A stretch of 64,000 nucleotides of DNA from Chloroflexota bacterium (GTDB taxonomy: Bacteria; Chloroflexota; UBA11872; VXNJ01). Numbering within the stretch: the first letter of the stretch is position 1; every line of letters starts with the position of its first letter. The position numbers and the translations under genes were made by a program. Where the stretch lies: NCBI GenBank assembly GCA_009840625.1, contig VXNJ01000001.1:248001-312000 (forward strand), in the 5' to 3' direction. The notes below the pieces were generated by a model. That model saw nothing but the letters and a program-made list of their open reading frames with translations. It had not been told where the DNA came from and did no database searches. This document shows positions 57,819 to 62,643 of this stretch, piece by piece.

Positions 57819-58187
57819 ATGGAACGCGACAAATTCCGCAGACTGGTGGACGAAGCCCTCGATTCGCTGCCTGACAGGCTCCGCGCCCGCATCGCAAACC
57901 TCGAGATCGTGGTTGAAAGCCGCCCGACCGCGGAAGACCTGGAACAGGCCGGGCTCGAGCGGGACGACGTCCTGCTCGGCCTGTACCACGGGATCCCGCT
58001 GCCCGACCGCAGCGACGGCTACAGCTTCGCGCTGCCGGACAAGATCAGCATCTACCAGGATCCGATCGAGTCCATTTGCGCCGACGACGACGAGGTGCGC
58101 GAGGAAGTACGGATCACGGTTCTGCACGAGATCGGCCACTATTTCGGGATAGGCGAAGAACGGCTAGGCGAACTGGGAGTGGGCTGA
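57819..58187 (+). CDS. Zincin-like metallopeptidase family protein
   Basis: 122 aa. The zinc motif HEIGHYFGIGEERL near residue 104 is typical of the short 'metallopeptidase family' (PF06262) found across Actinobacteria and Chloroflexota. The YHGIPL and ISIYQDPIE stretches also match. Cytoplasmic; target unknown. Confidence 0.88.
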   Translation: MERDKFRRLVDEALDSLPDRLRARIANLEIVVESRPTAEDLEQAGLERDDVLLGLYHGIPLPDRSDGYSFALPDKISIYQDPIESICADDDEVREEVRITVLHEIGHYFGIGEERLGELGVG

Positions 58188-59121: not shown

Positions 59122-60129
59122 TCAGATCAATCCGATCCGCTCGTAAATTCGATCCCGGGTCGCATCAGCGACCGGTCCGGCCCGTTCGGCGCCGGCGGCC
59201 AGGAGCGCATCGAGCCGGCCAGGTTCGCGGGTCAACTCGAGGTACCTGCTGCGCAACGGCCGCAGGGTCTCGATCAGAGCGTCGGCGACGCGGTCTTTGA
59301 GCTGGCCGTATCCGAGCCCGTCGAATTCTGCTTCGATCTCGTCCTCGGCCCGCCCGTCCAGCGCCTGATAAATCGAAAGCAGGTTGTAGACCCCCGGACG
59401 CTGCGGGTCGAATCGGATCGAATTCTCCGAATCGGTGACCGCCCGGCGGACCTTGCGCCGGATCTGGTCGGGGTCGTCCAGGACCATGACCTCGCCGGAG
59501 TGGTCCCGGTTGGACTTGCTCATCTTGGCGGCCGGGTTTGTGAGCGACATGACTCGGGCGGCCTTCGGCGGGATCGCCGCCTGCGGGACCACCACGGTGC
59601 CTTTGCCGAGTTGCTTGTTCAATCGCTCGGCCGCATCGCGCGTCAACTCAAGGTGCTGACGCTGGTCGTCACCGACCGGGACGTGGGTGGCGTCGTAGAG
59701 CAGGATGTCGGAGGCCATCAGGGCCGGATAGGTAAACAGCCCGGTCGAGGCGCGTTCGCGGTTCTGGCCGGCTTTGTCCTTGAACTGGGTCATGCGCTCG
59801 AGCCAGCCCAGCGGGATGTAGCAGTTCAGGACCCAGGCAATCTCGGCATGGGCGGACAGGTGCGACTGCTGGAAGAGGACCGAACGCTTGGGGTCGATTC
59901 CAGCCGCGATCAGGATCCCGGCAACTTCACGGATGTTGGCGCGCAGCAGCTGGGGGTCCTGCGGGACGGTGAGCGCGTGCAGATCGACGATTACGAAGTA
60001 GTTTTCGGCCCGGTCCTGGTTGGCCGCCCAGTGGCGGATCGCGCCCAGGTAGTTGCCGATGTGGATGTTTCCGGTCGGCTGTATCCCGGACAGGACGCGG
60101 GCGCGGGGTTCGGCGGGCTGGTCAGTCAA
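59122..60129 (-). CDS. trpS: Tryptophanyl-tRNA synthetase
   Basis: Class I synthetase. The HIGH motif reads HIGN at 23-26 and KMSKS is in AAKMSKSN. I chose the TTG at 60129 (335 aa), which overlaps the stop of the preceding gene (AATTGA) and starts just before VLSGIQPTG. An earlier frame to 60189 is not family-like. Confidence 0.95.
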   Translation of the reverse strand: MTDQPAEPRARVLSGIQPTGNIHIGNYLGAIRHWAANQDRAENYFVIVDLHALTVPQDPQLLRANIREVAGILIAAGIDPKRSVLFQQSHLSAHAEIAWVLNCYIPLGWLERMTQFKDKAGQNRERASTGLFTYPALMASDILLYDATHVPVGDDQRQHLELTRDAAERLNKQLGKGTVVVPQAAIPPKAARVMSLTNPAAKMSKSNRDHSGEVMVLDDPDQIRRKVRRAVTDSENSIRFDPQRPGVYNLLSIYQALDGRAEDEIEAEFDGLGYGQLKDRVADALIETLRPLRSRYLELTREPGRLDALLAAGAERAGPVADATRDRIYERIGLI

Positions 60130-60842
60130 TTGGGAATGAAGTGGTTGGCGAGGAGGTGCTCGAAGATCGCGTCCGAGCAATCGTCGCAATAGCTGGGATC
60201 GTATTCGTCTTCGGCGTGGGCAAAGTCTAGGAGGGTTTCCACGGTCGGGGCGTGCCGCATTACGCAGGCATCGTTGAGACAGTGCCAGTCGCCCCAGGAA
60301 AGCTCGGCGTTTTCGCGACCGGCGGGAACCGCTTCCATGATGTGGCCAAGCGAGTGCATGGCCAGCCGGGCCAGCGCCAGCTTGCGCTCGGCCGAGCGCC
60401 GGATCTGGCGCACCCGGTTGACGGATATGACCGCCGCAAGGTTCGGTTCGGTGGCCGAAAGCGCAAATGACGGGTCCTCGCCGGCCATGCGCTCCGGTAC
60501 GTCGTGCAGGTCGTGGTGGATGATGGCCAGATCGTAGTGGGCCCCCATCTGTTGCCAGGGTTCCTGGCGGATCGTCTCAATGAAACGGCGTCCGTCGATC
60601 ACCCCCGAGGCCTCATCGAGGCTCTGCTCGACGTAGTAAAGGGTCGACCAGTAGGGCGAGCCCTTGTCGACCGAGGGTATGTGCCAGGTCCCCAGCGGCC
60701 GCAGGTGCGGGCGCGTCAGGCCGATGCCGGTATCGGCGGCCAGCAAGAAGGCGTGCTCGAGCGCGCCGGCGGCGCCGTCGATTACCGCCCGGGCCTCAGT
60801 CATCGTGACCTCGGGCGTCCATTGGACCGAGATCGATTTCAC
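60126..60842 (-). CDS. Archaemetzincin-like protein with altered active site
   Basis: The zinc module of archaemetzincins is HExxH, then C-x4-C-x-M, then C-x2-C. Here HSLGH is at 163-167, HCLNDACVM at 187-195 and CDDC at 219-222, so both Cys pairs and the Met turn are in place but the catalytic Glu is Ser. I chose the GTG at 60842 (238 aa), overlapping the pepA stop (GTGA). It lies between pepA and trpS. Probably a non-peptidase or altered relative. Confidence 0.65.
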   Translation of the reverse strand: MKSISVQWTPEVTMTEARAVIDGAAGALEHAFLLAADTGIGLTRPHLRPLGTWHIPSVDKGSPYWSTLYYVEQSLDEASGVIDGRRFIETIRQEPWQQMGAHYDLAIIHHDLHDVPERMAGEDPSFALSATEPNLAAVISVNRVRQIRRSAERKLALARLAMHSLGHIMEAVPAGRENAELSWGDWHCLNDACVMRHAPTVETLLDFAHAEDEYDPSYCDDCSDAIFEHLLANHFIPN

Positions 60843-62377
60843 TGCGCGGTAGTCGCGTCCCCGGCCAGCGGGCCCGGCCAATCACGGACCAGTTGCGTGA
60901 TCAGGCGCACCCCGACCCCCTTGCCGCCGCCCTGCCAGAGCGGGGTCTTCTTGCCCTCGTAGGCAGTACCGGCGATGTCCAGGTGGGCGAACGGGTATTG
61001 GCCGGCGAAGTGCTTGAGAAACATTCCGCCGTTGATCGAGCCCGCGGCGCGCCCGCCGGTGTTGTCCAGATCGCCGGTCTTGGCCTTAATGTTCTCTTCG
61101 TATTCGTCCCAGAGCGGCAGTTCCCAGACGCGTTCGTTGACCTTGTCGCCGGCCCGCGAAAGCCGGTCGGCCAACTCCGGGCTGGTGACCATCATCCCGG
61201 TCGCGAAGTGTCCGAGGGCGATCACAACCGCGCCGGTGAGGGTGGCCATGTCGACGATGGCGTCGGGTTCGAAGGTCTGGGCGTGGCAGAGCGCGTCGGC
61301 CAGAATCATCCGCCCCTCCGCGTCGGTGGAGACGATCTCGACCGTCTTGCCGTTGGAAGCGGTGACCACGTCCGACGGCCGCAGGGCGCGGCCGGACGGC
61401 ATGTTCTCGACCGTCGGGACGATGCCGACCACCTTGAGGGCGGGTTTGAGGCGGGCGACCGCGAGCATTGTGCCGATCGTGGCCGCGGCCCCCGACATGT
61501 CGAACTTCATGTCCTCCATACGGGCGCTGGGCTTGATCGAAATACCGCCGGTATCGAACGACACGCCCTTGCCGACCACCGCCAGGGTGCCGGCCGCAGC
61601 CTGATCGGGCTCGTAGATCATGGTGATCAGGTGCGGCGGCTGTTCGGATCCCTGGGCCACCGCCAGCAGCGAACCCATCCCGGCCGCGCGCATCTGATCC
61701 TGGTCCATGGTCGAACAGTCGAGACCCTCGCTTTCGGACATTTGGCGGGCGGCCTCGGCGATCGCCCCGGGCGTCATGTCGTTGGGCGGGGAGTTCTGCA
61801 GGTTGCGGGCCAGGATCACCCCGTCGGCGATCGCGTTGCCGGCAGCCATGCCCTTGGCAAGTTCATCGAGACTGGCGGCGTCGAATTCGACCAGCTCGAC
61901 GGTCGCGAGCTCGGGGTCGGAATCGTCGTCGGCGCGGATGGTCTTGTACTTGTCGAAGCGGTAGACCGCCAGCCGCGCCCCCAGGATCGTGGCCTCGGCC
62001 GCGGCGGCCGGAGACAACCCGCCGACGCCGGCCCCGAAGGCGACGATCGCGGCCCGCTTGGACCCGGCTTTGGCGGCTGCAGCGACCCCGGCCGCAGCGG
62101 CTTCGGCGGCGGCCTCGGCGCTGAACTTGGCGGCGTCCCCGAGCCCGACGACCACGACCCGGTCGGCGGTCAATTCCGGGCCGGGGTAGAGCGTGAGGAC
62201 CTGGTTGGCCCGTCCGCTCAGGTCGCCCAGCCGCGCGACCTTGGAAATCTGGCCGCCGAGCCTGGCATCAACCGCGCCGGTCGCACCCGCGGGGGCGGTC
62301 ACGCCCGCGAACAGGTTCACGATGATCGTGTCGGCGTCGGTGGCGCAAATGTCGCCGGACGTAAGCAACGTCTGCAA
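60839..62377 (-). CDS. pepA: Leucyl aminopeptidase (M17)
   Basis: Dinuclear metal aminopeptidase, hexameric. Metal and catalytic segments are VGKGVSFDTGGIS, the Lys in SIKPS, STDAEGRMIL and LTGAVVIALG. I chose the TTG at 62377 (512 aa), with AAGGA seven bases upstream; an ATG at 62437 adds 20 basic residues. Overlaps the archaemetzincin-like gene by 4 nt, which joins two predicted metallopeptidase folds in one transcript. Confidence 0.92.
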   Translation of the reverse strand: MQTLLTSGDICATDADTIIVNLFAGVTAPAGATGAVDARLGGQISKVARLGDLSGRANQVLTLYPGPELTADRVVVVGLGDAAKFSAEAAAEAAAAGVAAAAKAGSKRAAIVAFGAGVGGLSPAAAAEATILGARLAVYRFDKYKTIRADDDSDPELATVELVEFDAASLDELAKGMAAGNAIADGVILARNLQNSPPNDMTPGAIAEAARQMSESEGLDCSTMDQDQMRAAGMGSLLAVAQGSEQPPHLITMIYEPDQAAAGTLAVVGKGVSFDTGGISIKPSARMEDMKFDMSGAAATIGTMLAVARLKPALKVVGIVPTVENMPSGRALRPSDVVTASNGKTVEIVSTDAEGRMILADALCHAQTFEPDAIVDMATLTGAVVIALGHFATGMMVTSPELADRLSRAGDKVNERVWELPLWDEYEENIKAKTGDLDNTGGRAAGSINGGMFLKHFAGQYPFAHLDIAGTAYEGKKTPLWQGGGKGVGVRLITQLVRDWPGPLAGDATTAQ

Positions 62378-62643
62378 GGCCGGGTCCTTCTTAGCAAGAT
62401 GGGGCGTGGATCGCGCGCAGCCACGGCGGGCGGGCAAGGATAAAGATTCTAGGGGTGCCCGCGGCTACGACCGGTCGTCGGTCGGGCGGATCGGGTGCGC
62501 CCGCGGAAGATCCGAAACGCTCAATTCAAGGCTTCCGTTCCTGCCGCCCGGCGCCCTTCCCACAATCGGTCCGCCGCGCCGCCGCCGTGCGCAAAAATGC
62601 AGGCGGACAGTTTCGTTCCCAACCCGCTAGGCATCGCCCCATC

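Follow-up and report, generated by a model that had tools for sequence, protein, structure and literature searches.

Gene, motifs and neighbourhood

The window, a stretch of 64,000 nucleotides from a Chloroflexota contig, carries a gene at 60126..60842 on the minus strand, where an open frame of 238 aa runs from a GTG start at 60842 to a TGA stop at 60126. The first-pass annotation had placed a gene here without its strand, and the frame is borne out. An earlier start, TTG at 60881, lies 13 codons upstream of the GTG; the GTG was taken because the homologues begin at the residue that it encodes. Further minus-strand features of the frame include H163-S164-L165-G166-H167 (60342..60356), which is the motif of the M54 active-site helix except that Ser replaces Glu, and, after W186, H187 (60282..60284), a third zinc-ligand-like His directly before C188 that had previously gone unmentioned. 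The Cys-rich zinc module, reported earlier as intact, is present in both halves: C188-x4-C193-x-M195 (60258..60281), which includes a Met-turn-like Met, and C219-x2-C222 (60177..60188). Towards the N-terminus lies E94-P95-W96-Q97 (60552..60563), invariant in all 34 members of the family described below.

Upstream is pepA, a minus-strand M17 leucyl aminopeptidase gene (60839..62437, counted from the first possible start of the ORF; Pfam PF00883, Peptidase_M17, E 9.3e-118), and downstream, also on the minus strand, is trpS for tryptophanyl-tRNA synthetase (59122..60129; Pfam PF00579, E 3.1e-68). The pepA stop and the GTG share 4 nt (GTGA), and the likely TTG start of trpS overlaps the stop of the studied gene by 4 nt. 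Translational coupling to pepA, as first proposed, agrees with the overlap in the window, but the overlap is not conserved: gaps of 7 nt and 47 nt separate the two genes in the relatives L028 and L029. pepA is adjacent and on the same strand in the three carriers of the window's family (3/3). None was found at the f2, f4 and L046 loci in a search of 40 loci, where the only matches were L028, L029, L064 and L065, which between them represent two genomes, those of L028 and L029; at the f42, f43 and f51 loci, which lay outside that search, the neighbours scanned included none named as pepA. The adjacency, found in the window's family and at no locus of another family in the set of 40, therefore has the look of a local arrangement and says little about function.

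The neighbours differ by family, including pepA and trpS; RsmI, MetG, GCS2 or D12 methylase; DUF4432 with ADP-ribosylglycohydrolase; cyclophilin with phosphoglycerate mutase; PilN; GH38; and formyl transferase. For this reason no partner was derived from the neighbourhood, and the synthetase genes near two of the families were regarded as a coincidence rather than a functional link. In f2 genomes a protein of ~580-600 aa is encoded divergently from the family gene (L034:3145-4920, with similar ones in L030, L031, L035, L040, L043 and L044); the L034 copy, which was scanned, has no Pfam match. In the window itself, a mini-zincin gene with an intact HEIGH (PF06262, Zincin_1) lies at 57819-58187 on the plus strand, ~2 kb from the archaemetzincin-like gene.

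Relation to the M54 archaemetzincins

The protein had been described as archaemetzincin-like, with a profile search against M54 proposed as the check. Single-sequence comparisons give little: Pfam returns no match for the window protein even at E 10, PF07998 included, a Pfam scan of the first 27 members yields no M54 match, and phmmer with the window protein against the PDB returns one chance row only (NfrA1, E 0.064). The NCBIfam model archmetzin NF033823 does respond, with E 1.1e-6 and 28.7 bits for the window protein, far below its cut-off of 145, and E 1.3e-10 for L098. With a profile of the family, the archaemetzincins 4axq and 3zvs come top in the PDB (E 0.0025 and 0.0026; next row 0.79). 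In hhalign, the 34 family rows align with 18 rows of canonical Chloroflexota M54 proteins from column 68 to column 227 (probability 98.3%, E 2e-14); 128 columns are in register, HSLGH is paired with HELGH, and the cysteines coincide. The first 67 residues fall outside this alignment.

The predicted structure agrees. An AlphaFold2 model built from a 27-row alignment (pLDDT 84.6, pTM 0.87) has 3lmc as its best Foldseek match (E 3.4e-6), and VIA-align places 2x7m, 4axq, 3zvs and 3lmc at Z 18.8, 18.1, 18.1 and 16.8, with the next at 13.1. These four best solved matches of the predicted fold are all archaemetzincins, the match is nearly whole-length, and the metzincin fold of the model is closest to AmzA. 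The proposed relation to M54, and with it the reading of the Ser as a replacement of the catalytic Glu, is upheld: kinship is real but remote.

Known archaemetzincins of MEROPS family M54 (AfAmzA, MkAmzA, MlAmzA, AMZ-tk) have in common with the window's family the fold, the Cys4 module, a Met after the second Cys, an H-x-x-x-H motif and a third His next to the first Cys. The window protein differs in lacking the catalytic Glu of HExxHxxGxxH (it reads HSLGH) and in having 19 rather than five residues between the second and third His, that is, 14 extra residues. The insertion of 20 residues reported earlier therefore needs adjusting: 20 residues do separate H167 from C188, but six are already there in canonical M54 (HxxGxxHC), which leaves a net insertion of 14. 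The spacing after the Met of the Cys4 module is 23, not 17. Across the family, the N-terminal half is rebuilt and without a Pfam match, and the third His and the HxxxH are lost in most relatives.

Distribution, residue survey and selection

A first contig scan with the single window protein gave no loci, and an alignment-based scan of genome contigs gave 24. The family, sought in Chloroflexota, was found in 33 of the 400 genomes searched, with one copy in each; the window's class accounts for carriers in 27 of its 41 genomes, or in 21 of the 24 of good quality. These 33 sequences and L046, from one named MAG, make up the 34 members, all of which were aligned and none dropped; they span six families of Chloroflexota, plus L046. 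Outside the phylum the search was a pattern-based contig scan, and a scan of viral contigs gave no members. No family match was found in G002, G004 and G018, close relatives from the same family or order as the window's genome, so the gene may be dispensable in some lines.

HExxH occurs in none of the 34 members. At the Glu position the window's family has Ser in all three carriers, encoded by TCG in the window and by TCA and TCG in the two nearest relatives; f2 has Ser, Ala, Arg or Gly, f4 and f43 have Asn, f42 has Gln, Glu or Tyr, f51 has Ala and L046 has His. The one Glu among these (L100) stands within QEFGQ, without either His of the motif. All three zinc-binding His are kept in seven members spread over several branches, and at least one is lost in the other 27; the Cys4 set is kept in 34/34. 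In the control set HExxH is invariant in 18/18 aligned canonical Chloroflexota M54 proteins, and two further canonical matches beyond these, L052 and L086, also read HELGH. A read error at the Ser, already thought unlikely with TCG two base changes away from GAA or GAG, was rejected as very unlikely on account of the relatives that share it. Loss of the Glu is family-wide and old, beyond what a reading of a single sequence could show.

Of the 19 invariant residues, 12 lie within the first 112 (W8, R48, G51, W53, Y64, Y70, E94, P95, W96, Q97, H102 and L112); judged from the alignment, these are the family signature of the rebuilt N-terminal half. Residues 52-56 and 61-63 have pLDDT below 50 in the model, yet they include the invariant W53; a segment that becomes ordered on binding might look like this.

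In the IQ-TREE phylogeny a branch with 100/100 support splits the 34 members from the 18 canonical M54 proteins. One change suffices for loss of HExxH and three for loss of the His triad, so the most parsimonious history would be a single loss of HExxH at the base of the family, with the triad lost later in several lines. Deep branching within the family is weakly supported (23/38 and 69/10), and for this reason the order of the His losses was left undecided. Omega is 0.02-0.17 in the 25 closest pairs; over 291 usable pairs (dS 0.05 to 1.5, of 561) its median is 0.42, but the distant pairs are near saturation and unreliable. Purifying selection among the close pairs is strong, and a decaying pseudogene is ruled out by their omega together with the open frames. 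Mutual exclusion with canonical M54 was considered, as the 33 carriers and the 20 canonical carriers among the 400 genomes do not overlap, and is not claimed because an overlap of 0 has a chance probability of 0.17.

A probable binding protein on an archaemetzincin fold

In the metzincin clan the Glu polarises the zinc-bound water (PMC3427221), and in AMZ-tk the exchange E183Q nearly abolishes catalysis, with minimal activity reported (PMC4681839). Peptidase activity of the Chloroflexota family is very unlikely, to judge from its residues, because no member has HExxH and most are without the full His triad. We regard it as likely, with good though incomplete confidence, that the window protein is a catalytically dead archaemetzincin (pseudopeptidase) of an old Chloroflexota family. 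The Cys4 site would bind a structural Zn2+, by analogy with AfAmzA. It is required for stability in MkAmzA, in which a Cys163Ala variant was inactive and precipitated, and in CarG of Myxococcus xanthus (PMC3427221), which would explain its retention throughout the family. In the window's family the three His may hold a second metal that could not activate water without a general base; in other families the His-bound metal site itself would be gone. The protein probably works as a binding protein rather than a protease, and a binding or scaffold role could be exerted on a partner through the conserved aromatic, Arg and EPWQ-H residues of the rebuilt N-terminal subdomain. A comparable course is described for inactive metallopeptidase homologues such as ADAM and M16 MPP-alpha, which retain the fold to bind or to serve as scaffolds once catalytic residues are lost (PMC11266112); neither M54 nor CarG turned up in a word search of this review.

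CarG (NCBIfam NF033824, Myxo_non_zincin) is the best analogue of how the family might work. It is likewise archaemetzincin-like, with the Glu replaced, the Cys4 kept and presumably no proteolytic function; its HQxxH form coordinates two zinc atoms without protease activity (PMC8156234). It has Gln at the Glu position and keeps five residues from its second His to its third, whereas the window protein has Ser and 19 residues. CarG also comes from another phylum, and its model lies close to canonical M54 and far from the Chloroflexota family. Because this model scores nearer to active M54 than to the family, the comparison suggests that the Glu was lost in Chloroflexota separately from its loss in CarG.

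Could the protein nevertheless serve in transcription as CarG does, as a zinc-bound archaemetzincin adaptor without proteolytic activity that joins a CarD-type partner of RNA polymerase? Translational coupling links carG to carD (PMC8156234), and NF033824 matches two of the 34 members with E values of 0.01 or below. Its scores there, 15.3 bits to L003 and 12.6 to L002, are small beside 108.6 to the canonical M54 protein L068 and a cut-off of 250; the window protein gives no row at E 10 and falls short of that equivalog cut-off. The gene upstream is pepA, not carD, and the family loci showed no neighbouring CarD gene. In the window's genome the sole PF02559 (CarD/TRCF) match lies within a 1261-aa, Mfd-sized frame, and across the 46 genomes searched short frames with this domain are few (G008, 436 aa; G045, 192 aa). 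Such an adaptor is improbable here. We give about as little credence to a role on PepA, in which the dead peptidase would modulate the M17 aminopeptidase next door as its regulator or partner: the same-strand adjacency in the window's family and the 4-nt overlap in the window speak for it, against which pepA was matched in just two genomes besides among the 40 loci, both with the overlap lost.

Still less probable is a hydrolase in which the three His hold zinc and water is activated by the Ser, by a carboxylate from elsewhere or by the substrate. The triad does persist over several branches, but most members have lost part of it in an otherwise conserved protein, and the E183Q result in an M54 enzyme bears against it too. 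The first-pass annotation had allowed for a Glu elsewhere filling the catalytic role. The sole invariant Glu, E94, is kept also where the three His are gone, so it is unlikely, from the alignment, to be a displaced base for the His site. Least credible of all, to the point of being negligible, is a spurious resemblance, in which a generic zinc-ribbon protein carries a chance HxxxH. The absence of Pfam matches, the NCBIfam score under its cut-off and other weak matches to the same model elsewhere in the phylum would fit such a protein; the archaemetzincins heading a nearly whole-length fold match, well above the next rows, and the in-register profile-profile alignment do not.

The dead archaemetzincin acting as a binding protein thus stays the preferred reading. 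A more specific version of it is speculative and rather doubtful: the aromatic, Arg and EPWQ-H signature would be a site for a specific ligand or partner, the unarmed zinc site of the tri-His members a metal or thiol sensor, and the series from tri-His to His-less members a record of the passage from enzyme to binding protein.

In a literature search of open-licence papers, none of those listed, judged by title or the start of the abstract, describes the Glu-less Chloroflexota family, and CarG was the one well-studied Glu-less archaemetzincin met there. That a second such family exists, apparently independent of CarG, suggests repeated non-catalytic reuse of the M54 fold and its Cys4 zinc core. 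HExxH is always lost, the His triad often and Cys4 never, a staged pattern that sets structural apart from catalytic zinc; the residues newly found to be invariant are a concrete place to look for a partner. Caution is advisable in annotating such genes as proteases.

Two minor observations may be added. The sole CarD/TRCF-domain match of the window's genome is itself located in the window, at ~1846-2016 on the minus strand. Elsewhere in the phylum, six frames of 258-500 aa (L087, L088, L089, L092, L093 and L095) give weak matches to the archaemetzincin model at positions from 1501 onward; the stretches shown are without HExxH (e.g., SKYMG, HLVGD, HLLGD), and a further group of dead metzincin-like domains may be represented here.
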